A stretch of 38,949 nucleotides of DNA, taken from positions 1 through 38,949 of the IMG/VR virus record IMGVR_UViG_3300037502_001435, one strand, 5' to 3'. This document shows positions 1 through 38,949 of the stretch, piece by piece. The notes beneath the pieces are model-generated. The model saw nothing but the letters and a program-made list of their open reading frames with translations, was not told the DNA's origin and made no database searches. Made by a program: the position numbers and the translations under genes. Numbering within the stretch: the first letter of the stretch is position 1; each line of letters starts with the position of its first letter. This DNA comes from a virus.

Positions 1-107
1 CTTACCAAACCAAAACTATTGCCTTTCGTGTTCGTGTCGAATTTGTCGAACCGATTAAAAAAATGGTTAAAGATTATGTTTCGGAACATCTGCAAGGTGA
101 CGTATAA
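1..107 (+). CDS. 3' part of a small basic DNA-binding-like protein (second copy)
   Basis: This is the C-terminal 34 codons of the 54-aa gene found complete at 38469-38633. Bases 1-108 are identical to 38527-38634 and the two copies diverge only after the TATAAC box. The stop codon TAA (105-107) lies inside the box that opens the next attC-like site. The window begins inside the gene, so its 5' end is not visible here. It is either a true second copy, or the same gene seen through an alternative assembly path in which the next cassette is missing (see findings). Confidence 0.7.
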   Translation, partial: YQTKTIAFRVRVEFVEPIKKMVKDYVSEHLQGDV

Positions 108-235
108 CTGTTTCGGGCTTTGCGTTCGGCAGGGCTTGATAGCACTACACTTGATTTGAAAAACAAAAAATTGATAATATGAATACAGATAATTTGAAAA
201 ACGAACCCCCTGCTGACGCAAAACCCGTGTTACCC
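102..235 (+). other. attC-like recombination site (site 6), cassette array
   Basis: Imperfect palindrome with outer boxes GTATAAC (102-108) and GTTACCC (229-235). The left arm contains CGGGCTTTGCGTTCGGCAGG and the right arm CCTGCTGACGCAAAACCCG, which pair over about 20 positions with a small bulge next to the left box. The roughly 75-nt loop between the arms is A-rich and holds the first ATG of the next gene. It is nearly the same repeat as site 1 (36394-36475). The left arm starts again at 38923 and is cut off by the end of the window. Architecture (R box, L box, loop, L box, R box) follows the integron attC family; the identification is by structure only. Confidence 0.75.
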
Positions 236-460
236 GAAGTTAAAATGGGCAAACGGAAATTTGTTTATAGATTACAAACACCAACTAATCCTAATGTCAG
301 AACTTTTGAAATAGGGATAATTGATGAACCAATAAGTGAGTTTAGGAAAGAATATCCAGATAGTTGGTGTGATGCTCGAATTTGCGAAGGATTTTGGGGA
401 GATGAAAAGTTTGTTTCAAAAGTAGTAGAAACGCTAAATGCCCATTTTAATTTTGGGTAA
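179..460 (+). CDS. small cassette gene, unknown function
   Basis: 93 codons from ATG 179, or 71 codons from ATG 245. The upstream start lies in the loop of attC-like site 6, so translation from it would read through the right hairpin arm. The downstream start begins just outside the site with MGKRKFVYRL. I give the longer form because other cassette genes also start in the loop (529, 37834). The body (residues 23-93) is a compact mixed-charge domain containing YPDSWCDARICEGFWGDEKF. I do not recognise a family. The stop TAA (458-460) is part of the GGGTAAC box of the next site. That box is the exact reverse complement of the GTTACCC box upstream of the gene. Confidence 0.6.
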   Translation: MNTDNLKNEPPADAKPVLPEVKMGKRKFVYRLQTPTNPNVRTFEIGIIDEPISEFRKEYPDSWCDARICEGFWGDEKFVSKVVETLNAHFNFG

Positions 461-588
461 CGTTCGGGCGGTTGGCGTTCGTTGCCGACTTGGGAACACA
501 AAACTTTAACTTAAAAACAAAATTTGATATGGAAAACAACACTTTAACAAACCACGAAAACGGCAATGACGCTAACCGCTTGTTAGCT
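455..588 (+). other. attC-like recombination site (site 7), cassette array
   Basis: Outer boxes are GGGTAAC (455-461) and GTTAGCT (582-588). The left arm GCGGTTGGCGTTCGTTGCC (469-487 region) pairs with the right arm GGCAATGACGCTAACCGC (562-579). As in the other sites the left arm has about four extra bases right after the box. The loop (487-561) is A-rich and contains the ATG of the next gene at 529. Confidence 0.75.
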
Positions 589-810
589 GCTGCCATTATT
601 TCCGCAGTATTAAAAAGCGATTGGTCTTATATGCTTACACTATTCCCAGAAGGAGTAGAACATCGGACATACAAATATAAAGAAGTTTCTGATTTTGACG
701 ATTGGGAAACTTACGAAGATTTTACAAGGTATGTTTACCCAGCTCAATCAAAGTTGATAGAATTATGTTTGAATAAAGCGTTAGAGTGTCTGTCAAATGG
801 TTGCAGCTAA
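529..810 (+). CDS. small acidic cassette protein, unknown
   Basis: 93 codons starting MENNTLTNHENGNDANRL. The ATG lies in the loop of attC-like site 7 and the N-terminal ~20 residues are encoded by the right hairpin arm. The rest looks like a small globular protein with a hydrophobic helix (LLAAAIISAVL) followed by aromatic and acidic residues (YKEVSDFDDWETYEDF). No family is recognised. The stop TAA (808-810) is inside the AGCTAAC box, the reverse complement of the GTTAGCT box at 582. This is the last cassette before the phage early genes. Confidence 0.6.
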   Translation: MENNTLTNHENGNDANRLLAAAIISAVLKSDWSYMLTLFPEGVEHRTYKYKEVSDFDDWETYEDFTRYVYPAQSKLIELCLNKALECLSNGCS

Positions 811-811
811 C
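803..811 (+). other. cassette-array boundary box (half site)
   Basis: GCAGCTAAC is the reverse complement of GTTAGCTGC at 582-590, so this box closes the unit that carries the 93-aa gene. No convincing right arm follows. The only candidate is GCCTAGTGTTAGC near 964-976, inside the next gene, which could make a weak and very long site. I treat 811 as the junction between the cassette array and the phage core. Confidence 0.5.
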
Positions 812-829
812 TAATGGCTAACTATCAAT

Positions 830-861
830 ATAATTGTAAACAAAAAACTAAAAACAATTAT
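830..861. repeat. inverted repeat upstream of the early gene 898
   Basis: ATAATTGT (830-837) and ACAATTAT (854-861) form a perfect 8-bp inverted repeat around a 16-nt A-rich spacer. It lies in the 87-nt gap between the last cassette gene and the gene at 898. It could be an operator or a local unwinding element. A TTTTGC-type sequence (885-890) just upstream of the ATG is only a poor match to the Bacteroidota -7 element. Confidence 0.4.
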
Positions 862-2165: not shown

Positions 2166-2720
2166 ATGGAACAACAAGAAAACAAACTGCCAACATTAGC
2201 CGAATTAACTGGCGATATTGAATTGGCGTACAAGAATGATGCGCTAAATGCCTTGCTTAACGCGCAACCACCGAAAGCATGGGTTAAAGAACACCCGTAT
2301 ATCAAAGGCTACAAATACCTGCCAATTGACAAGATTGAGCTATTACTCCGTAAGATATTCAAAGAGTATAGAATAGAAATAACGGGGCAAGGCACAGCGT
2401 TTAATGGTGTATGGGTTACGGTTCGCGTACACTTCAAATCACCTTTAACGGGGCAATGGAGTTTTCACGATGGCATTGGCGCGGCACAACTTCAAACGGC
2501 TAAAGGGACTTCACCTGCTGACCTTGCCAACATAAACAACGGGGCGCTGTCAATGGCTTTTCCTATTGCAAAAACGGTTGCTATAAAAGACGCTGCTCAA
2601 ATGTTTGGCAACTTATTCGGGGCAAACCTTAATCGTAAGGATATAGTAGACTTCACTCCTGACAAGAATTTAACGGAGGCATTTTTTAAATCAAATAAAG
2701 AGAAACTAAGCCATGATTAA
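2166..2720 (+). CDS. Rad52-like single-strand annealing protein
   Basis: 184 codons. It has the layout of Rad52/22-type phage annealing proteins: a helical start (LPTLAELTGDIELAYKNDAL), then WVKEHPYIKGYKYLPIDKIE, a strand region VWVTVRVHFKSPLTGQWSFH, the glycine-rich DGIGAAQLQT segment and AVAIKDAAQMFGNLFG-like helices (here TVAIKDAAQMFGNLFGANL) near the end. These proteins anneal ssDNA during phage recombination, working with an exonuclease. The exonuclease gene overlaps this one by 8 bases, which supports a two-component recombination pair. Assignment is by remembered family pattern. Confidence 0.75.
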   Translation: MEQQENKLPTLAELTGDIELAYKNDALNALLNAQPPKAWVKEHPYIKGYKYLPIDKIELLLRKIFKEYRIEITGQGTAFNGVWVTVRVHFKSPLTGQWSFHDGIGAAQLQTAKGTSPADLANINNGALSMAFPIAKTVAIKDAAQMFGNLFGANLNRKDIVDFTPDKNLTEAFFKSNKEKLSHD

Positions 2721-7841: not shown

Positions 7842-8441
7842 ATGAATAGCAAAAAAGTAAAAATATCAGAAGTTAAGGCAAACCCAAACAATCCGAGAAT
7901 AATCAAGGATGACAAGTTTGCTAAATTGGTGCAAAGCATTAAAGACTTTCCGCAAATGCTTGAAATCAGACCTATTGTGGTTAATGCTGATATGGTTGTG
8001 CTTGGTGGAAATATGCGTTTAAGAGCCTGCAAAGAGGCTGGGTTAAAAGAAGTGCCGATTATTTTAGCCGATGACTTAACCGAAGAGCAACAGCGTGAAT
8101 TTATTATCAAAGACAATGTCAGCGGCGGCGAATGGGACTGGGAACAGTTGGCAAACGAATGGGATGCTAATAAGCTTGATGAATGGGGGTTGGATGTTCC
8201 GGGGTTTAATGTAAGTGCGGAGCAGTTTGGCGAAGGCTTTAGTTTACCGGATGGAGACAAAGCACCGTTTCAGCAAATGACCTTTACACTTGCAGATGAA
8301 CAGGCGGAGGTAATTCATAACGCCATTGCGGATATGAAGGCAACTGATGAGTATAAGTATGCGGAAACAATGGGCAACGAGAATAGCAACGGAAACGCCC
8401 TGTATTTAATTGTGGCATCATGGGCAGGGCAAAGGAAATAA
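7842..8441 (+). CDS. ParB/sulfiredoxin-like nuclease-domain protein
   Basis: 199 codons from ATG 7842; an in-frame TTG at 7806 would overlap the previous gene. The N-terminal ParB-like domain has VKISEVKANPNNPR, then the signature VVLGGNMRLRACKEAGLKEV, then VPIILADDLTEEQQREFIIK. Phage proteins of this type, often next to DNA-modifying enzymes or terminase, bind or nick DNA. It overlaps the Mom-like gene by 22 bases, so the two are probably co-translated. Confidence 0.8.
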   Translation: MNSKKVKISEVKANPNNPRIIKDDKFAKLVQSIKDFPQMLEIRPIVVNADMVVLGGNMRLRACKEAGLKEVPIILADDLTEEQQREFIIKDNVSGGEWDWEQLANEWDANKLDEWGLDVPGFNVSAEQFGEGFSLPDGDKAPFQQMTFTLADEQAEVIHNAIADMKATDEYKYAETMGNENSNGNALYLIVASWAGQRK

Positions 8442-9235
8442 TTGTTAAGGTGATACCCTCAAAGCTGGCTAATGAGTTTGTGAAGAAACATCATTACAGC
8501 GGAAAGGTTGTGCAGAATAGTAAATTGCACTTTGGGGCTTTTCTTGATGGCAAGTTACACGGCGTTATGAGTTACGGGTCACCTTTGGATAAGCGTAAGG
8601 TAATGCCGCTTGTTCAGCCCTCGGCATGGAATGAAATGCTTGAACTTAACCGCATGGCCTTTGACGACTACCTGCCAAAGAATAGCGAAAGCCGCTGTAT
8701 ATCTATTTCAATAAAGCTGATCAAAAAGCACGCACCACATATAAAATGGATTCTTTCCTTTTCAGACGGTACGCAATGTGGGGACGGTATAATATACCGT
8801 GCATCCGGGTTTGTTTTGACTGGAATAGTTACAAATTCTAACACTTGCAAATTATCTGATGGCAGCGTTATTCATAAAATGACATTAGAAAGCAATCCAA
8901 TACAAAAAAGAAATGAATTAGGAGGTAAAAGCTATTACGAAATTACTGGTGGTAAATATGATTTCAGGAAATATGTTGAGGCGGTATGTGGTGAAATATT
9001 AATTGGTTTTCAACTTCGCTACATTTACCTAATAGACAAATCCTGCCGTATAACTGTTCCAATACTGCCATTTTCAAAGATTGACGAATTGGGAGCGGGT
9101 ATGTATAAGGGGCAAAAAATAAGCCTCGCAGAACGCAAGGCTTTGAGCGGGGTGGTCGAATCGAACGCCGATTCTCGGCTGGAGGCCGAGCGTGTTGCCA
9201 CTACACTAACCCCGCATGATGATGCGCAAATATAA
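8420..9235 (+). CDS. Mom-like DNA adenine modification protein
   Basis: 271 codons. The layout matches the GNAT-fold Mom family known from phage Mu (N6-methylcarbamoyl adenine modification): NEFVKKHHYSGKVVQNSKLH, FGAFLDGKLHGVMSYG, ELNRMAFDDYLPKNSESRC, and KWILSFSDGTQCGDGIIYRA. Such modification protects phage DNA from restriction. The last ~30 residues (from about ALSGVVESNADSRLEAE) are antisense to a tRNA-Gly-like sequence on the minus strand, so this tail may be a read-through of non-protein sequence. It is paired with a ParB-like gene immediately upstream. Confidence 0.7.
   Translation: MGRAKEIIVKVIPSKLANEFVKKHHYSGKVVQNSKLHFGAFLDGKLHGVMSYGSPLDKRKVMPLVQPSAWNEMLELNRMAFDDYLPKNSESRCISISIKLIKKHAPHIKWILSFSDGTQCGDGIIYRASGFVLTGIVTNSNTCKLSDGSVIHKMTLESNPIQKRNELGGKSYYEITGGKYDFRKYVEAVCGEILIGFQLRYIYLIDKSCRITVPILPFSKIDELGAGMYKGQKISLAERKALSGVVESNADSRLEAERVATTLTPHDDAQI
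9146..9215 (-). tRNA. tRNA-Gly(TCC)-like sequence, imperfect T stem
   Basis: On the minus strand the acceptor halves GCGGGGT and ACCCCGC pair perfectly. The D stem is GTGT/ACAC with a GG-containing loop. The anticodon stem CTCGG/CCGAG encloses CCTCCAG with anticodon TCC, but position 33 is C instead of the usual T. The T loop is TTCGATT, but its 5-bp stem has only three pairs. The discriminator is T, as in bacterial tRNA-Gly, and no CCA is encoded. It lies antisense inside the end of the Mom-like gene. It could be a degenerate or captured tRNA. Confidence 0.5.
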
Positions 9236-10695: not shown

Positions 10696-11061
10696 ATGAA
10701 CTTAGAAAAATGGGCAAGCGATTACCGTAAGTACATTCAGTTTCAAGCCGAGTGTTTGCCTTATGCCTATCAGTACGGAGGCATGAAGTTCAATGCAAAT
10801 GACTTTCCTAGTTTTAAATTGTTTTGTGAGTATCTAGGGACGGATAGATGTTTTATTCAGCATAAGTGCGCTAAAGATATTCGCGATAATGCTATTGAGT
10901 TTCACAACTGTTTAGGGCAGCCGTTGCGATGGGACTTGTACAGTTGCCGATTGACTTACTCACACTTTAAGGGAGTGAACTTTAACTTTAAACTAGAGTA
11001 CAACGATAAGATGTATAAGCCGTCAGATTTTCAACATTTGATAAACAAACTAAAAGCATGA
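10696..11061 (+). CDS. hypothetical protein, unknown
   Basis: 121 codons: MNLEKWASDYRKYIQFQAEC, then an aromatic-rich mixed sequence with several cysteines (CEYLGTDRCFIQHKCAKDIR). No motif is recognised. It lies between terL and the glycosyltransferase genes and overlaps the next start (ATGA at 11058), so it belongs to that transcription unit. Confidence 0.65.
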   Translation: MNLEKWASDYRKYIQFQAECLPYAYQYGGMKFNANDFPSFKLFCEYLGTDRCFIQHKCAKDIRDNAIEFHNCLGQPLRWDLYSCRLTYSHFKGVNFNFKLEYNDKMYKPSDFQHLINKLKA

Positions 11062-11753
11062 CAATAATCACAATAGCCTACAACGAGGAGTTAATGTTGC
11101 CTCACTTTATTAAGCATTACCGCGAACGCTTTCCGCAATGCGAAATAATTGTGTATGACAATCAAAGTACAGACCGCACGCAGCAGATAGCATTAGAGAA
11201 CGGATGCCAAGTTATTGAGTATGACACGGGCGGCAAATTAGACGATGCAACATATTTGCACATTAAGAATGAAACTTGGAAACATCTACACGGTTGGGTT
11301 ATCGTTGCAGATGTAGATGAACTTTGCGACATAACAGCGGAGGACTTATACAACGAAGCTAAGAACGGTGTAAGTGTTATTCGATTTGAAGGGTACAACA
11401 TGGTGAACCTTTGGGATAACACCAACATTGACTGCATTACGAACGGGGTACGGGCTGAAAGCTATGATAAAATGTATTGCTTCGATGCAAGTAAGATTTA
11501 CAAGATAAACTATTCAGCAGGTTGCCACAATGCAGCGCCTCAAGGGCAAGTGAAGTTTAGCGAAAAGGTTTACAGATGCCGCCACTACAAATACATCAAC
11601 ATTGACTACATGATAGCGCGGCATTCCGAATATGGAAAAAGATTATCTCCAAACAATCTTGCAAAAGGCTACGGAGGTCATTACCTTTACAGCGCGGAAA
11701 AGATACGGAACGAATTTATCATGGCTAGGAAACAATCAAAAAGGATTATATGA
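11058..11753 (+). CDS. glycosyltransferase family 2-like
   Basis: 231 codons. It starts MTIITIAYNEELMLPHFIKH, the N-terminal strand and NEE motif of GT-A enzymes. IIVYDNQSTDRTQQIA is the nucleotide-binding region and WVIVADVDELC carries the DxD-type metal site. The later SAGCHNAAPQGQ and CRHYKYI segments resemble GT2/GT92-like proteins in which a His is conserved. It probably transfers a sugar to a phage protein, phage DNA or host surface glycan; the acceptor cannot be told from sequence. Start and stop overlap both neighbours. Confidence 0.8.
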   Translation: MTIITIAYNEELMLPHFIKHYRERFPQCEIIVYDNQSTDRTQQIALENGCQVIEYDTGGKLDDATYLHIKNETWKHLHGWVIVADVDELCDITAEDLYNEAKNGVSVIRFEGYNMVNLWDNTNIDCITNGVRAESYDKMYCFDASKIYKINYSAGCHNAAPQGQVKFSEKVYRCRHYKYINIDYMIARHSEYGKRLSPNNLAKGYGGHYLYSAEKIRNEFIMARKQSKRII

Positions 11754-12289
11754 ACGGAATATGGACAAAAGAAGATGCGGAACACCATCAAAGCAGCTTG
11801 AGGTTTGCGAAGTGGCTTGCGAGCTATTTGCCGAAAGATACGCCCGTTGTGGACTTTGGATGTGGCAATGGTTACTACATGGCGTATTTAGAGCAAAAGG
11901 GATTTGATGCCGTTGGTGTTGATGGGAATGATAGCATTGATATTCTATGTAAAAAATTCCATAAAATAGATTTAACCTTTCCTATAAATTTAGAACCTAA
12001 GTGTAACATAGTTAGTTTGGAGATAGGCGAACACCTGCCAAAAGACGCGCAAGAAACATTCATGCAGACGCTAACAAACAACTGCGACAAGCATTTAATC
12101 CTAAGTTGGGCAAGCATTGGACAGCCTGGCATTGGACACATAAACTGCCGCGACCAAAAAGAAGTGATTGCAGATGTTGAAAGCAGGGGTTTTAAACTGA
12201 ATGAATCCGAAACTAAAGAGGCGCGGGCGAATGTAGATGCGAATTGCGATTGGCTTGAAAGAAATTTATTAGTGTTTGAAAGGATATGA
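11750..12289 (+). CDS. class I SAM-dependent methyltransferase
   Basis: 179 codons. AdoMet motif I is VVDFGCGNGYYMAYL and motif II is GFDAVGVDGNDS. IVSLEIGEHLPKDAQETFMQ follows where motif IV/V is expected. No NPPY-type motif is present, so DNA methylation is less likely than methylation of a sugar or small substrate. It sits between two glycosyltransferases, which suggests it caps or modifies the glycan they build. Confidence 0.8.
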   Translation: MNGIWTKEDAEHHQSSLRFAKWLASYLPKDTPVVDFGCGNGYYMAYLEQKGFDAVGVDGNDSIDILCKKFHKIDLTFPINLEPKCNIVSLEIGEHLPKDAQETFMQTLTNNCDKHLILSWASIGQPGIGHINCRDQKEVIADVESRGFKLNESETKEARANVDANCDWLERNLLVFERI

Positions 12290-12909
12290 AACAACCAATA
12301 ACAATCATAATGACAAGCTGCGACCGTTGGGATTTATTCCAACAGACGCTCGATAGCTTCTTTAAATTGAACACCTATCCTTATGTTGCGTTTTATGTTC
12401 ACAATGACAGCATTCAGCCTATACCGCAACAGATTAAAGAGAAGTATGCTGACAAGGGTATCACATGGCACGAAGGTACTAAGCGCGGTTTAAGTACCGC
12501 TTGGGATTATTTGATTGCGTTGGTTGAAACGGAATACTTCTTTAACCTAGAGGACGATTGGTTGTTTGAGGGCAATCCATACTTTATTCAGATGTGCATA
12601 TTTGAGTTAAGCAGATTTAATATAGACCAAATTTGGGTTAGAAATGAAAAAGACCACAATCATCCATTAATACCTGCATTCAAAGAATTTAAAAAAGTTG
12701 GTAAGACAAAAGATTGGTGCGGATTTAGTTTTAACCCTTCTATGCGAACATTAAGCAGGTGGTTAGAATTATTTCCAAACGGGATAGCAGGCAAGGATGA
12801 AATAGAAATAAGTAGAGAAGTGCATGATGTATATTTAGCGGCAAGCCTTGTTGATTCAGCTTGCCGCCACATAGGGAACGGACGGCACACAAAAGACTTT
12901 AAGATATGA
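12286..12909 (+). CDS. GT-A glycosyltransferase-like protein
   Basis: 207 codons. The start PITIIMTSCDRWDLFQQTLD and FYVHNDSIQPIPQQ look like a GT2-type nucleotide-sugar domain. ETEYFFNLEDDWLFEGNPYF carries an EDDW motif in the place of DxD. The C-terminal half has WCGFSFNPSMRTL and a final HIGNGRHTKDF. It lies in the same overlapping gene chain as the methyltransferase and the other GTs. Confidence 0.75.
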   Translation: MKQPITIIMTSCDRWDLFQQTLDSFFKLNTYPYVAFYVHNDSIQPIPQQIKEKYADKGITWHEGTKRGLSTAWDYLIALVETEYFFNLEDDWLFEGNPYFIQMCIFELSRFNIDQIWVRNEKDHNHPLIPAFKEFKKVGKTKDWCGFSFNPSMRTLSRWLELFPNGIAGKDEIEISREVHDVYLAASLVDSACRHIGNGRHTKDFKI

Positions 12910-13148
12910 ATAGATTACACAAACTACTTACTAGGATTATATTGTGTATTGAAGATATAGAAAGAAAGCGCTTTGCAAAGCGTAATGACGAAGCAAGATT
13001 GGCAATTATTAAAGTTGCAAAAAAGCACGGTGAATTAGTTTGCGATTGCTGTCATTCAGTACAAATGTACAATTCTAGGTATCCAAATAAAATAGCGTGT
13101 GGGTGCTGCTTTAAAATATCTAGGGCTTATCTTAAATTAGATTACTAA
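12906..13148 (+). CDS. small zinc-finger-like protein
   Basis: 80 codons. A basic helical N-terminus (RIILCIEDIERKRFAKRNDE) leads to two cysteine clusters, VCDCCHSVQMY and IACGCCFKI, spaced about 20 residues apart as in a treble-clef or zinc-ribbon site. Function is unknown; it is carried within the glycosyltransferase operon with overlapping start and stop. Confidence 0.65.
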   Translation: MNRLHKLLTRIILCIEDIERKRFAKRNDEARLAIIKVAKKHGELVCDCCHSVQMYNSRYPNKIACGCCFKISRAYLKLDY

Positions 13149-13867
13149 TGATTAAAGTTTACGCTCCCTTACAAATGGATTTCGCGGCAAATATTCTAGT
13201 CAAAAATATAAACAGACTAGGGCATAGCTGCGAACGTGTTGCTAAATTGGAGGCAGATAAACGCAATATTTGGGTTGTGTATAACAGCGCAATGGCATGG
13301 GTGTTACCTAGTAAGTTAATCAGCTATCAAACGGAGCAGAACGGAACTAGGTGGTTTAGCGATAAATACCGCGAACGATTGGCAAAGTCTATTGCAGTTT
13401 GGGAGTATTGCGAAAGTAACTTATTTGAGTATAGCAATCCAAATACAAGCATAGTACGCCCGGGCATTGAACCGCAACCAAAGCAGCGCAAAGATATTGA
13501 CGTTCTGTTTTACGGGGCGATAAACGATAGGCGTAAAAATGCTTTAAGAGGACTGAATGTTAAGGTGTTCAATAATGTGCTTGGGGATGACATGAGGCGG
13601 CTACTTCACCGCGCAAAGACTGTTTTGAATATCCATTATTACGAACCGAACGGAATTGAATCGTTTAGACTAAACGAGGCACTAAGCCATAACTGCAATG
13701 TAGTGAGTGAGTATGCCTTGCATGGCTGCGAACCGTACAAAGACATAGTGAAGTTTGGCACGATACCTGAATTAAAAGGATTACTTTCGTCCGTTGGTGA
13801 GTTTAATCATGATATTAGCCATTTGGATAACATAGAAGAGATAAGGGAAGCGCTAAAAAAGATATGA
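13148..13867 (+). CDS. GT-B-like glycosyltransferase
   Basis: 239 codons. The N-terminal half is a Rossmann-like region (MIKVYAPLQMDFAANILVKN). The second half has KDIDVLFYGAINDRRKNALR and KTVLNIHYYEPNGIESFRLN followed by EALSHNCNVVSEYALHGCEP, the donor-binding (E-x7-E-like) region of GT-B enzymes. It is shorter than usual GT-B enzymes (about 350 aa). It ends the glyco island and overlaps the next gene by ATGA. Confidence 0.7.
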   Translation: MIKVYAPLQMDFAANILVKNINRLGHSCERVAKLEADKRNIWVVYNSAMAWVLPSKLISYQTEQNGTRWFSDKYRERLAKSIAVWEYCESNLFEYSNPNTSIVRPGIEPQPKQRKDIDVLFYGAINDRRKNALRGLNVKVFNNVLGDDMRRLLHRAKTVLNIHYYEPNGIESFRLNEALSHNCNVVSEYALHGCEPYKDIVKFGTIPELKGLLSSVGEFNHDISHLDNIEEIREALKKI

Positions 13868-36192: not shown

Positions 36193-36399
36193 ATGAACAA
36201 AGCAACATACGGAGAGAAAGTTAAGACCATTGACCCTGCAAAAGTAGCGCAATGGAAAAAGATGCAGCCGAGAATTGGCAAGATGAATTGGATAGCCGAG
36301 CAATGTTTCAGAAGTCGCGCTGTAATTCACAATGCTATCAATCATGGCAAGGCAACAGAAAGCACAGAGGCGAACATTGATAAATTGTTTGGGCTATAA
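36193..36399 (+). CDS. HTH-like DNA-binding protein, candidate repressor
   Basis: 68 codons. The C-terminal half, GKMNWIAEQCFRSRAVIHNA followed by INHGKATESTEANIDKLFGL, has the shape of a Cro/XRE-type helix-turn-helix. It is the last core gene before the cassette array. Its stop TAA (36397-36399) lies inside the CTATAAC box of attC-like site 1. It may bind the 16-bp operator shared by its own promoter and the early promoter; that is inference. Confidence 0.6.
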   Translation: MNKATYGEKVKTIDPAKVAQWKKMQPRIGKMNWIAEQCFRSRAVIHNAINHGKATESTEANIDKLFGL

Positions 36400-36475
36400 C
36401 GGTTTCGGGCTTTGCGTTCGGTTTTGTGCGTAGGGCTTGAGCATTGGAAAAACTGACGCAAAACCCGTGTTATAT
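36394..36475 (+). other. attC-like recombination site (site 1), core/array junction
   Basis: Boxes CTATAAC (36394-36400) and GTTATAT (36469-36475). The left arm CGGGCTTTGCGT pairs with the right arm ACGCAAAACCCG. Both arms are almost identical to site 6 at 102-235, so the two are copies of one repeat family. The loop is ~35 nt. This is the junction between phage core and cassettes. Confidence 0.75.
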
Positions 36476-36533
36476 GAAGGTGGGATTTCACGCACTACAC
36501 TTTCATCGAAGCACGTAAAAGAAAAAAGAAAAA

Positions 36534-36572
36534 ATGAGCGTGGGAAATTTTAAAAACATAATTCAAAAATGA
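36534..36572 (+). CDS. possible 12-aa leader peptide of the methyltransferase cassette
   Basis: ATGAGCGTGGG begins a short frame MSVGNFKNIIQK whose TGA overlaps the methyltransferase ATG (ATGA at 36569). The same ATGAGCGTGGG recurs right after the methyltransferase stop (37311). It may provide coupled translation. Confidence 0.3.
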   Translation: MSVGNFKNIIQK

Positions 36573-37309
36573 CAACAAAAGAAGAAGTATTGCAGAATTG
36601 CACAGTAGAAGGAATGGTAGTTAAATTGCCAAACACACAACTTGATAGAAAACTTTATCAAGAAGTAGCTAAATCGCTTGAATTAATTGGCGGTAAATGG
36701 AAAGGTGGTAAAGTGTTTGGTTTTGTTTTTGCAACTGACCCAACCGACTTATTAGACCAAATCGCAAACGGTGAAAAACGAAATTTAAAAAAGGAATTTC
36801 AGTTTTTTGCAACACCTGAAAAACTTGCTGATGAATTGGTTTATTTGGCTGACCTTAAACAACATGACACAATTTTAGAACCAAGTGCAGGACAAGAAGC
36901 AATTATCAAGGCAATAAACAAGGTTTGCGATGTTGTACCTGATTGCTTTGAATTGATGGATGTAAATACAGTTATTTTGAATAAAAGTGGTTTGCGTTTC
37001 AATTTGATTGGAGATGATTTCTTTAAACACAACGGCAAAACTTACAGCAAAATTATTGCTAACCCACCATTCACAAAAAACCAAGATATTGACCACTTAA
37101 AAGAAATGTACGAGTGCCTTTCTCGTGGTGGTAGATTAGTTTGTATTACTTCTGAAAGTTGGGTAAACGGTAGCCAAAAAAAGCAAGTTGAATTTAAGGA
37201 GTGGCTTGATGAAGTAGAAGCCGAAGTTATTGACATTGAAAAAGGTTCCTTCAAAGAAAGTGGCACAATGGTAGGAGGTAAAATTGTTGTTATAAATAAA
37301 TCTCTTTAA
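36569..37309 (+). CDS. N6-adenine-type DNA methyltransferase carried as a cassette
   Basis: 246 codons. An N-terminal ~75 residues (VVKLPNTQLDRKLYQEVAKS) precede the catalytic domain, which has FFATPEKLADELVYLADL, motif I ILEPSAGQEAII (~103) and motif IV IIANPPFTKNQDIDHLKEMY (~164). The NPPF form is typical of N6-adenine methyltransferases. It would modify phage DNA against host restriction. It is the largest cassette gene. Box pair ATATAAC/GTTATAT flanks the unit. Confidence 0.8.
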   Translation: MTTKEEVLQNCTVEGMVVKLPNTQLDRKLYQEVAKSLELIGGKWKGGKVFGFVFATDPTDLLDQIANGEKRNLKKEFQFFATPEKLADELVYLADLKQHDTILEPSAGQEAIIKAINKVCDVVPDCFELMDVNTVILNKSGLRFNLIGDDFFKHNGKTYSKIIANPPFTKNQDIDHLKEMYECLSRGGRLVCITSESWVNGSQKKQVEFKEWLDEVEAEVIDIEKGSFKESGTMVGGKIVVINKSL

Positions 37310-37310
37310 A

Positions 37311-37385
37311 ATGAGCGTGGGCAGATTTTTTCTTTTTCTTTCTCACGAAAGTTTATTAGATGTACGTCTGCCCACTTTCATATAA
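37311..37385 (+). CDS. possible 24-aa peptide ending in the attC-like box
   Basis: MSVGRFFLFLSHESLLDVRL then PTFI, stop TAA at 37383-37385 inside TATAAC. It starts with the same ATGAGCGTGGG as the leader at 36534. An inverted repeat GTGGGCAGA (37316-37324) / TCTGCCCAC (37367-37375) lies within it and may act as a terminator or RNA stem instead. Weak as a coding gene, notable for the stop in the box. Confidence 0.3.
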   Translation: MSVGRFFLFLSHESLLDVRLPTFI

Positions 37386-37510
37386 CGTTATTTGGCTTTA
37401 CGCAGGTGGGGCTAAATATTACAAAACTTTCAACCTGCACAAAAGATTATTAAAAGAACGTAAGATGGGTTTAAACGCTAACCCCCACTTGCGTAAAACC
37501 AATGTTAGCA
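37380..37510 (+). other. attC-like recombination site (site 2)
   Basis: Boxes ATATAAC (37380-37386) and GTTAGCA (37504-37510). TTGGCTTTACGCAGGTGGGG in the left arm pairs with CCCCCACTTGCGTAAAACCA in the right arm. The left box matches the reverse complement of site 1's right box, so the methyltransferase unit has paired ends. Confidence 0.75.
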
Positions 37511-37522
37511 CCAGTTTTTATT

Positions 37523-37777
37523 ATGGAATACGAAGAAATAAAACAAAAATTAACGAGCAGAGAAATTAACTGTGAGCAAGCATTTGAAAGCCTTGCGGAA
37601 ATTGGCTATTGCCCAAACTTATTAAATGATGATAATGGACATTGGGCTGTTAAATTTGATGGCTTTCAAAATGTGCCGATGGGTGATGAACCCGAAGATA
37701 TTTCAACTACTTGTTTTATTGAAGCAAAGGATTGGAAAGATAGTATTTATGAAGCACTTGTTTGGGCGTTGTCATAA
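37523..37777 (+). CDS. small acidic cassette protein, unknown
   Basis: 84 codons from ATG 37523 (MEYEEIKQKLTSREINCEQA). An upstream in-frame ATG at 37502 overlaps the right box. A helical start leads to FESLAEIGYCPNLLNDDNGH and WAVKFDGFQNVPMGDEPEDI and an aromatic C-terminal helix (KDWKDSIYEALVWAL). Its acidity would suit an antirestriction or inhibitor-type protein, but no family is recognised. It is flanked by TGCTAAC/GTTAGCA boxes. Confidence 0.65.
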   Translation: MEYEEIKQKLTSREINCEQAFESLAEIGYCPNLLNDDNGHWAVKFDGFQNVPMGDEPEDISTTCFIEAKDWKDSIYEALVWALS

Positions 37778-37783
37778 AATTGG

Positions 37784-37915
37784 TGCTAACGGATTAGGGT
37801 ATAAGCGAAGAAAACAAATTAAAAATAAAAACTATGTGGCCATTACGAATCTTAAAAGAAAGCACAAAAGTATCAACCATAGGCGGAAGTTTTTTTCGCT
37901 TATACCGTGTTATGC
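37784..37915 (+). other. attC-like recombination site (site 3)
   Basis: Boxes TGCTAAC (37784-37790) and GTTATGC (37909-37915). Left arm AGGGTATAAGCGAA pairs with TTCGCTTATACC. Including outer bases, TGGTGCTAAC matches the reverse complement of GTTAGCACCA at 37504. The A-rich loop carries the ATG at 37834. Confidence 0.75.
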
Positions 37916-38058
37916 GAAGGTTTTTCAAAACTTTCCCATGCACAATAGGTTGGCATAAGACACCGAAAGTAGCAACGTACAATGGATGTAATTTAAAGGG
38001 CAGTTGCCAACGATGCAATGAAATGGTTATGCAGGATTCTCAAGGCAACTGGTTTTGA
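37834..38058 (+). CDS. DUF1660-like small zinc-binding phage protein in a cassette
   Basis: 74 codons from an ATG inside the loop of site 3. The first ~27 residues come from the hairpin (MWPLRILKESTKVSTIGGSF). The conserved part FPCTIGWHKTPKVATYNGCN followed by LKGSCQRCNEMVMQDSQGNW has one Cys-His and one Cys-Cys pair, like the small prophage zinc proteins remembered as DUF1660. Flanked by GCATAAC/GTTATGC boxes. Confidence 0.65.
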   Translation: MWPLRILKESTKVSTIGGSFFRLYRVMRRFFKTFPCTIGWHKTPKVATYNGCNLKGSCQRCNEMVMQDSQGNWF

Positions 38059-38067
38059 AAAACTTTT

Positions 38068-38147
38068 GCATAACGGATTGCGGCTAATGGCTGGCGGCTT
38101 TTATAAGCGTTTAGTATGTAGCCGCTTGACATTAGGTGCTGTTATGC
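38068..38147 (+). other. attC-like recombination site (site 4)
   Basis: Boxes GCATAAC (38068-38074) and GTTATGC (38141-38147) match perfectly here. The arms include GGCTAATGGCTGGCGGC and GCCGCTTGACATTAG, pairing with mismatches and bulges. It has the most complete box symmetry in the array. Its loop is short (~25 nt) and holds no start codon. Confidence 0.75.
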
Positions 38148-38226
38148 GTTCGCCTTATTTTTTCGTGTTGGTTTTCAATTAGTTATAAAATATTTTAAAA
38201 ATAAATCAAAAATACTTTGAAAAAAG

Positions 38227-38257
38227 TTTGCAGTTATCAAAATAAGCTGTATATTTG
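38227..38257 (+). promoter_or_regulatory. promoter carried within a cassette
   Basis: TTTG (38227-38230), 19 nt, TATATTTG (38250-38257): a perfect Bacteroidota promoter. It lies in the cassette between sites 4 and 5 and starts transcription ~15 nt before ATG 38281. It can therefore also drive downstream cassettes. Confidence 0.75.
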
Positions 38258-38280
38258 CTCTATAATTAAAAACAAACAAA

Positions 38281-38487
38281 ATGAAAGCAATATCAAACAC
38301 ACAAATTTTTGACACAGTATTTAATAATACTTACATTATTACATCTGTAACAGAAAAGCGAATTAATTTAGACCAACCCGGCTGTAAGTACACGACTTCA
38401 ACTGGTAGAAGCTCATCAAAATTTTATGTTGGGCATGATAGATTTGAAAATAATATAAAAACTGGGAAATGGAAAATAATAGAATAA
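38281..38487 (+). CDS. 68-aa cassette protein with own promoter
   Basis: MKAISNTQIFDTVFNNTYII, then a strand-rich basic part CKYTTSTGRSSSKFYVGHDR and an end KTGKWKIIE. It resembles a small beta-barrel-like domain, but I know no family. Its 3' end overlaps the next gene (ATG 38469) by 19 bases, so the two are an operon and possibly a pair. Confidence 0.6.
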   Translation: MKAISNTQIFDTVFNNTYIITSVTEKRINLDQPGCKYTTSTGRSSSKFYVGHDRFENNIKTGKWKIIE

Positions 38488-38633
38488 AAGGCGGAAAACG
38501 CAAAGGGGCAGGTCGCAAACCTGCTCCTTACCAAACCAAAACTATTGCCTTTCGTGTTCGTGTCGAATTTGTCGAACCGATTAAAAAAATGGTTAAAGAT
38601 TATGTTTCGGAACATCTGCAAGGTGACGTATAA
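38469..38633 (+). CDS. small basic DNA-binding-like protein (AT-hook/RHH-type)
   Basis: 54 codons: MENNRIKGGKRKGAGRKPAP, then YQTKTIAFRVRVEFVEPIKK and MVKDYVSEHLQGDV. The GGKRKGAGRKP start followed by a strand (TIAFRV) and a helix is a common small phage/plasmid DNA-binding pattern. The stop TAA (38631-38633) lies inside the GTATAAC box. Its last 107 bases are repeated at the start of the window. With the overlapping upstream gene it could be a regulator-partner pair. Confidence 0.65.
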   Translation: MENNRIKGGKRKGAGRKPAPYQTKTIAFRVRVEFVEPIKKMVKDYVSEHLQGDV

Positions 38634-38634
38634 C
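38527..38634 (+). repeat. 108-bp exact repeat of the window start
   Basis: 38527-38634 equals 1-108 base for base. The identity stops within the TATAAC box: next come GGTCGGG here and TGTTTCGGG at the start of the window. The break therefore falls at a cassette recombination box. Confidence 0.9.
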
Positions 38635-38723
38635 GGTCGGGTATTTGTGAAGTGTGGCTACCACAAATGCTTAATCAGAGAACAAAAGTTTATTAGCCAC
38701 ATTTTACAAATACCTTGTTATAT
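38628..38723 (+). other. attC-like recombination site (site 5)
   Basis: Boxes GTATAAC (38628-38634) and GTTATAT (38717-38723). Left arm GGTATTTGTGAAGTGTGGCT pairs with right arm AGCCACATTTTACAAATACC. The unit before it has boxes differing at one position (GTATAAC versus GCATAAC), a G-T-compatible change. Confidence 0.75.
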
Positions 38724-38928
38724 GATGTTAAAAAACAAAACTATAATAGCAGTAACTAAAAAGGGGAGCATCTTTCCTGTAAAACTGTTTAATGATTGGT
38801 GGAAGTGTGGTAAATGGTGTGATGAATTTATTAAAAGAGAAAAAGGATGCGACCCGACACAATATGAAGTTAATAAAGTGGAAGGAGTTAAAAAATATAT
38901 GTACGCTTTGTTTTTTAATTTCCTATAA
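38722..38928 (+). CDS. 68-aa cassette protein, unknown
   Basis: MMLKNKTIIAVTKKGSIFPV then KLFNDWWKCGKWCDEFIKRE and KGCDPTQYEVNKVEGVKKYM. Three cysteines and many aromatics suggest a small folded domain. The start codon overlaps the GTTATAT box and the stop TAA (38926-38928) is inside CTATAAC, so the gene fills the whole unit between boxes. A second ATG at 38725 is equivalent. This is the cassette that may be missing in part of the population. Confidence 0.6.
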   Translation: MMLKNKTIIAVTKKGSIFPVKLFNDWWKCGKWCDEFIKREKGCDPTQYEVNKVEGVKKYMYALFFNFL

Positions 38929-38949
38929 CTGTTTCGGGCTTTGCGTTCG
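38923..38949 (+). other. left arm of an attC-like site, cut by the window end (copy of 103-128)
   Basis: TATAACTGTTTCGGG and the following TTTGCGTTCG equal 103-128. In a circular map the sequence would continue at 129. Confidence 0.8.

Follow-up and report, generated by a model that had tools for sequence, protein, structure and literature searches.

Cassette array of a viral contig as a probable part of a phage-borne, integron-like platform

The 38,949-base virus contig analyzed here over its whole length (IMG/VR record IMGVR_UViG_3300037502_001435, classed there as linear and called the window below) belongs to a Bacteroidota phage and carries phage genes, including a terminase, together with a series of small gene units separated by imperfect palindromes. 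Judging from sequence, this region very probably forms the array of cassettes belonging to an integron-like platform carried by phages, in which a unit consists of a hairpin site followed by its gene, and for which relatives of this phage encode a compact recombinase. More broadly, and with somewhat less confidence, we propose that Bacteroidota phages run an integron kind of their own, characterized by a recombinase without the insertion typical of IntI, an attI of the form TAACTATTATATA, inverted self-starting cassettes in which the hairpin serves as translation start, and a pool of cassettes that is exchanged among phages and separate from that of chromosomal IntI cassettes.

The array and its boundaries can be read directly from the window. 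It extends from the end of a 68-amino acid (aa) gene (36399), through the joined contig ends, to the early genes (about 898), and its sites occupy 36394-38949 and then 103-588, with a final box at 805. An earlier interpretation made from the letters alone (the sequence-only reading) had described seven small gene units here; seven units are indeed present, delimited by 7 hairpin sites and 8 boxes, but not every one holds a gene, as unit 3 (37916-38067) has no convincing candidate. All boxes quoted in that reading were found in the window, and its central claim, that the box 5' of a unit is the reverse complement of the box 3' of the same unit, holds far above chance. The outer bases match at 3, 3, 3, 2, 2, 3 and 3 positions in the successive units (19/21), a result equaled in 4 of 5,040 permutations (permutation mean 7.7), whereas the two boxes of one and the same hairpin match at only 2, 0, 0, 3, 2, 0 and 1 positions. 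In a stem scan that requires AAC...GTT, run on both strands, the 7 hairpins scored 14.5-20.8, compared with 13.5 for the best chance pair in the remaining 35 kb, and the three hairpins tested for folding gave z values of -2.4 to -4.4 on the + strand. The features of the array, in the order obtained by joining the contig ends, are as follows.

36193..36399, + strand: backbone gene of 68 aa forming the left border; its stop codon lies within the first box, CTATAAC, and its L087 homolog (see below) ends at the same junction, TTTGGGATATAACGG.
36394..36475, + strand: hairpin S1, CTATAAC at 36394 and GTTATAT at 36469; stem CGGGCTTTGCGT / ACGCAAAACCCG, with spacers of 5 and 1 nt.
36569..37309, + strand: unit 1 gene, 246 aa, DNA-methyltransferase-like (weak Eco57I match; PADLOC type II MTase, 1e-8).
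37380..37510, + strand: hairpin S2, ATATAAC at 37380 and GTTAGCA at 37504; sites of 93-97% identity occur in phage contigs L205 and L130.
37523..37777, + strand: unit 2 gene, 84 aa, with zero family matches.
37784..37915, + strand: hairpin S3, TGCTAAC at 37784 and GTTATGC at 37909.
37916..38067, no strand assigned: unit 3.
38068..38147, + strand: hairpin S4, GCATAAC at 38068 and GTTATGC at 38141.
38281..38633, + strand: unit 4, two genes, 38281-38487 (68 aa) and 38469-38633 (54 aa), the latter with its stop codon in the box TAAC.
38628..38723, + strand: hairpin S5, GTATAAC at 38628 and GTTATAT at 38717; the strongest fold among those tested (z -4.35, + strand).
38725..38928, + strand: unit 5 gene, 67 aa; S5 and unit 5 are present at the right contig end and not at the left.
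38923..38949, + strand: left part of hairpin S6 at the contig end, CTATAAC at 38923; same sequence as 103-128.
1..108, + strand: second copy of the 3' end of unit 4, identical to 38527-38634 and joined straight to S6.
103..235, + strand: hairpin S6, TATAAC ... GTTACCC (229), with the start codon of the unit 6 frame (179) in its loop.
179..460, + strand: unit 6 gene, 93 aa assuming a start in the S6 loop, with its stop codon in the box GGGTAAC.
455..588, + strand: hairpin S7, GGGTAAC at 455 and GTTAGCT at 582, with the unit 7 start codon (529) in its loop.
529..810, + strand: unit 7 gene, 93 aa, starting in the S7 loop, with its stop codon in the box AGCTAAC (805).
805..840, + strand: right end, a box without a hairpin, AGCTAACTAATGGCTAACTATCAATATAA, which is a degenerate form of the attI-like motif of relatives, TAACTANTATATA; no recombinase gene follows.

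As the list illustrates, the stop TAA of several genes lies within a box TAAC (window positions 36397, 38631, 458 and 808, as well as in other units), such that the recombination box also closes the reading frame.

The contig ends themselves record two versions of the array. Beyond the duplicated stretch at 1-108, only the next ~26 bases (S6, 103-128) match the contig end. At the left end unit 4 leads directly into S6 and at the right end it leads through S5 and unit 5 to S6; the two versions differ exactly by the S5 hairpin plus unit 5, with the joint within TATAAC. This difference is either a polymorphism with and without the cassette in a mixed population or a duplicated unit, both of which fit the assembly, and it is the one expected if a single unit is excised between two left boxes. 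The sequence-only reading had joined 36394-38949 to 1-811 in a circular map. This circular reading is supported by the sister phage L087, in which late genes, array and early genes follow one another without interruption, but the ends do not form a simple circular overlap, as the end of unit 4 is repeated without S5 and unit 5.

L087 (a 64-kb contig) shares late genes with the window at 84% nucleotide identity over 3.3 kb, and the ERF-like protein of the window (2166-2720) has 91% amino acid identity with its L087 counterpart. The L087 array starts at the same gene end as that of the window, contains entirely different units (radical SAM, DNA-cytosine methylase and small proteins) whose boxes match as well, and finishes at GGTAACTATTATATAG, about 55 bp before the gene for a 273-aa tyrosine recombinase; the window counterpart of this end is TAACTAATGGCTAACTATCAATATAA. 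Different cassettes thus occupy the same position in related phages, a comparison the sequence-only reading had suggested. That reading had also named a fixed gene order with non-matching boxes in related phages as evidence against itself, and L087 shows the opposite on both counts.

Exact presence or absence of cassettes between near-identical genomes is directly visible in cultured Polaribacter phages. Of the seven Freya genomes compared, five have an identical 43,888-base core, from which the remaining two deviate by 4 and 1 differences, while the stretch just before the integrase measures 90, 932, 1834, 2306, 4130, 4725 and 5032 bases. Every joint in these arrays falls directly after ...AAC, beside the recombinase. 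The arrays of F1 (empty), F2, F5, F9 and F10 are prefix-nested in this order, F6 has a different last unit and F8 lacks one internal unit; in an integron-like reading, the series would represent gain at the integrase end. Similarly, a 781-bp segment consisting of a hairpin and an adenine methylase gene is present in Danklef_1 and _5 and absent from _2 to _4, a difference that runs from box to box. The publication on these phages gives Freya genome sizes of 44.0-48.9 kb and an integrase, and its text uses neither the word integron nor the word cassette (PMC8776804); a search of the literature on the Freya variation returned no description of it as an integron. One unit of Freya_2 (~450-880 of the variable region) apparently has its gene inside the hairpin loop (~350 nt) instead of after it.

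The same behavior is seen in a wider set of contigs. A 16-base left-arm pattern matched at least 120 viral and at least 118 genome stretches, and site statistics were compiled from 461 sites in the listed pattern matches plus the phage relatives; shuffled genome loci yielded 2 sites in 837 kb. For 240 units of other contigs among the matches listed, boxes matched within the unit at 2.68 of 3 bases, compared with 0.92 after shuffling and 1.06 for boxes of the same hairpin. For units present in two different surroundings, all discordant pairs (63/63; at least 8 independent groups) retained the hairpin to the left of the gene and differed in the right one, and the homology of shared units began and ended at TAAC boxes. 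L149 and L111, for instance, have 791 bases in common at 100% identity and no further aligned stretch, and an insertion at a box distinguishes the near-identical phages L155 and L178. Unit 4 of the window (38137-38635) is 94% identical in phage contigs L153 and L160, where the homology stops at the boxes and another hairpin stands in front; by its sequence this is an exchange at the right box, for which we have no full explanation here. A hairpin at L205:2597-2722 has two T-arm-like GGTTCGA segments that give it a tRNA-like look, which ARAGORN did not confirm, calling no tRNA there.

Phage units also differ from chromosomal ones in their layout. Among the listed loci, the direction of the gene relative to its site was 136:5 in viral contigs and the opposite, 0:58, in Bacteroidota chromosomes; chromosomal units are therefore of the classic gene-then-attC form, whereas phage units are of the form hairpin-then-gene. 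We further counted start codons within loops, considering hairpins of 110-135 nt and frames that run from the loop ATG at least 40 codons into the unit. A loop ATG opened the frame of the unit in 120 of 184 phage hairpins (3 and 24 for the other two frames), in 47 of 97 hairpins of a set selected by recombinase (2 and 11), in S6 and S7 of the window, and in 7 of 131 chromosomal hairpins. In phages, the hairpin thus frequently also provides the start of the gene that travels with it.

Arrays of this kind are closely linked to a recombinase gene. No open reading frame (ORF) of the window matches the profile of this recombinase at an E-value of 10 or below and, by our own site scan as opposed to IntegronFinder, the window has at least 2 attC sites and no nearby IntI, which is the descriptive make-up of a cluster of attC sites lacking integron-integrases (CALIN). 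The description of the array as CALIN-like and without an integrase therefore suits this contig, but not the system to which it appears to belong, as a dedicated non-IntI recombinase adjoins the array in L087 and in dozens of other phages. Scanning for proteins closely related to the L087 recombinase recovered only that recombinase itself. An alignment query using the recombinase alone yielded 80 viral loci, 71 of which scored at least 240 bits; at the 54 of these with at least 900 bp upstream, a hairpin site was found upstream on the same strand in 46 cases and two or more in 37. Same-strand sites upstream of the gene numbered 173 in total, compared with 5 upstream in the opposite orientation, 1 downstream and 1 in shuffled sequence. 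The attI-like TAACTATTATATA precedes most phage recombinases, and neighbors in a few long contigs are phage-typical (RNA ligase/tail fibre attachment, thymidylate synthase, helicase). At several loci the recombinase gene beside the array is frameshifted, internally shortened or annotated as a short remnant (L191:7655-8453, L204, L130:1974-2585 and the Danklef integrase); recombinase loss, as in the window, therefore seems common.

By sequence, these enzymes are distinct from IntI. The XerA-like model NF040815 was the best or near-best model for array-linked proteins of both phages and chromosomes, while the integron model TIGR02249 (cut-off 265 bits) gave 142-226 bits for nine of them, with an alignment broken at the IntI insertion. 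Over the 39 alignment columns of this insertion, ten Bacteroidota IntI proteins had 39.0 residues, phage recombinases 0.2 and chromosomal relatives 0.7, and the alignment with IntI4 (2a3v) likewise breaks at this point. A FastTree phylogeny grouped IntI in a clade (support 1.0) that excluded the array enzymes of phages and chromosomes and placed these array enzymes outside the XerC/XerD branch (support 0.886), although a single clade uniting phage and chromosomal array enzymes had support of 0.0. The predicted recombinase fold (pLDDT 86) aligns equally with XerA (Z 22.3) and IntI4 (Z 22.2) and so favors neither. The chromosomal array-linked recombinases L264, L254, L245, L224 and L237 have a long N-terminal extension with repeated RWSKxxKAWHIPYT-type segments, possibly an extra DNA-binding or dimer domain, which the phage recombinases lack.

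We surveyed 296 Bacteroidota genomes, of which 94 encode the new recombinase type, 84 (28%) encode IntI above the cut-off and 26 carry the hairpin pattern. Among genomes encoding only the new type, 16 of 69 carry the pattern, as do 4 of 25 encoding both enzymes and 6 of 143 encoding neither, compared with 0 of 59 in which IntI alone is encoded; the site family therefore follows the new recombinase type. Full-length IntI above the curated cut-off is in itself far commoner in this sample than surveys of complete RefSeq genomes suggest (PMC9024848), where IntegronFinder 2.0 found the sole complete integron of Bacteroidetes proper in Salinibacter ruber.

These observations bear on the reading of the array as an ordinary CALIN, in which bacterial integron cassettes became stuck in a phage, with a host IntI as the enzyme that moves them, if they move at all. 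The matching boxes, the attC-like folded sites and the presence of IntI in more than a quarter of the sampled genomes would all fit, as would the use of a Polaribacter phage attC by IntI1, reported in PMC9892861. We nevertheless regard this reading as unlikely, given that phage units are reversed relative to those of Bacteroidota chromosomes, that genes start inside phage hairpins, that a phage-encoded non-IntI recombinase adjoins the arrays, and that the hairpin pattern tracks this recombinase type and not IntI. Of the claim of an integron-type cassette array in a phage, the array and the exchange within the box are supported. With a unit that is a hairpin plus the following gene, and a recombinase that is not an IntI, the window array looks more like a recombinase-less member of a separate phage system than like a piece of a bacterial integron. 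Asymmetry of the hairpin spacers (5-7 vs 1-3 nt) was considered as a hallmark of this system and rejected, as Bacteroidota IntI arrays also show 6/2 sites.

Less probable still is that the recombinase serves lysogeny only and that the variation stems from homologous or illegitimate recombination between similar hairpins. Bartlau et al. interpreted the integrase of Freya as indicating a temperate phage (PMC8776804), and hairpins of one family do have sequence in common. However, exchange is confined to a few box bases between otherwise unlike hairpins, takes place at the recombinase end of genomes that are otherwise identical, and involves arrays linked to the recombinase in one fixed orientation. 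A third possibility, that the hairpins are terminators of transcription or structured repeats of another kind in an immobile set of phage genes, for which one hairpin per intergenic space could speak, was rejected as extremely improbable because the cassettes move: they differ between sister phages and shuffle precisely, the 5'/3' box rule and start codons within loops do not fit, and the Freya and Danklef series already contradict this idea.

The phage-borne platform could operate as follows. The mobile unit would be a hairpin site and then its gene. In many relatives, a gene at the right array end encodes a compact tyrosine recombinase, which would insert units, circular or excised, into an attI-like box adjacent to this gene, between TAAC and TATTATATA, and would excise or shuffle units by exchange between left boxes (TAAC). 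We infer that this recombinase catalyzes the unit moves, probably with a folded single strand as its substrate. Units would be read in the direction of the phage operon, with the hairpin loop giving the start codon in most relatives. In this scheme, the window phage has lost the recombinase and its attI is degenerate; its array is therefore presumably inert, or moved in trans by an enzyme of the host or of a co-infecting phage.

Several observations weigh against this proposal. In the window, the recombinase is missing, the attI is degenerate, and the contig-end polymorphism could be a duplicated unit; the Freya series could have arisen by successive losses as well as by successive gains. In addition, there are exchanges in which what is shared starts at the right box and includes the gene but leaves out the hairpin (window unit 4 compared with L160, and the L087 methylase compared with L145), and these count against it because simple left-box exchange does not produce them. 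Of 20 chromosomal loci with the new recombinase type, only 9 have asymmetric hairpins within 6 kb, and IntI loci of Bacteroidota have similar asymmetric sites; the two systems are therefore related and IntI could act in trans, as it may do in view of its presence in 84/296 genomes and of the recombination of a Polaribacter phage attC by IntI1 described in PMC9892861.

Compared with Pfam, 79 cassette proteins gave few matches. DNA methyltransferases form the largest matched cargo group (four N6_N4_Mtase, one DNA_methylase, one Dam and one Eco57I-like), followed by PAPS reductase (2) and unknown families. Methyltransferase cassettes fit protection from restriction, and the cassettes would probably benefit the phage, several of them being DNA methyltransferases, as expected for escaping restriction.

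Elsewhere in the window, ARAGORN calls a tRNA-Gly at 9145-9215 on the minus strand, within an ORF on the opposite strand (8420-9235), which is likely a false call, and a series of small glycosyltransferase-like and SAM-methyltransferase-like ORFs, recognized by eye from their translations, lies at 11058-13867 between the terminase and head genes. An Rfam scan of the window at gathering thresholds matched zero families, and megablast of its first 12 kb against GenBank phages gave no match.

If the proposal is correct, phages operate a cassette-capture platform beyond carrying stray integron pieces, on viral contigs whose lengths run from a few tens of kb to >300 kb, and the IntI insertion, thought essential for integron recombination, would be dispensable for such a system. 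It would provide a mechanism for fast gene turnover in phage genomes, such as that of methyltransferase cassettes in the face of restriction, and would account for the 5-kb size range of Freya isolates whose remaining genome is almost identical, making Freya a cultured system for the idea. It also suggests that IntI-based searches overlook a class of cassette arrays.

That phages carry cassettes is not new, because integron parts in phages have already been reported: Qi et al. 2023 (PMC9892861) examined 10,705 genomes and found 3 complete IntI-based integrons, one In0 and 17 CALINs. The phage CALINs and integrons described there resemble our arrays in their attC-type sites and cassettes, often DNA methyltransferases, including those of Polaribacter phage P12002L, whereas a phage-specific recombinase, an inverted unit and cassette turnover are not described in the parts consulted. 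A search of the open-access literature, with most subscription papers and preprints outside its range, returned no description of a phage-encoded system that is insertion-less and has inverted cassettes; the cassettes of Zeta crAss-like phages (PMC12386605) were considered and set aside as unrelated, being retroelements. The array recombinases may belong to the 'integron-like' subgroup of simple tyrosine recombinases of Smyshlyaev et al. 2021 (PMC8138268), who describe the IntI insertion as essential for integron function though incompletely conserved in the subgroup and, in the parts consulted, tie no array or phage system to its insertion-less members. Simple recombinases of the XerA/XerC/XerD type (NF040815; PDB 5hxy and 4a8e) provide the best sequence matches and share the fold, the length of ~270 residues and the lack of an extra domain, but the array recombinases fall outside the XerC/XerD branch and are linked to hairpin arrays. 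With the integrons of Vibrio and class 1, the phage system has in common small mobile units between imperfect palindromes with nnnTAAC/GTTAnnn boxes, exchange within the box, a single attI-like site beside a tyrosine recombinase, and arrays that change at their attI end and lose internal units by excision. It differs from them in a recombinase that scores below the IntI cut-off and lacks the 39-residue insertion present in ten of the ten Bacteroidota IntI compared, and in a phage-carried site that lies 5' of its gene and often contains the gene start, whereas the attC of integrons lies 3' of the gene.

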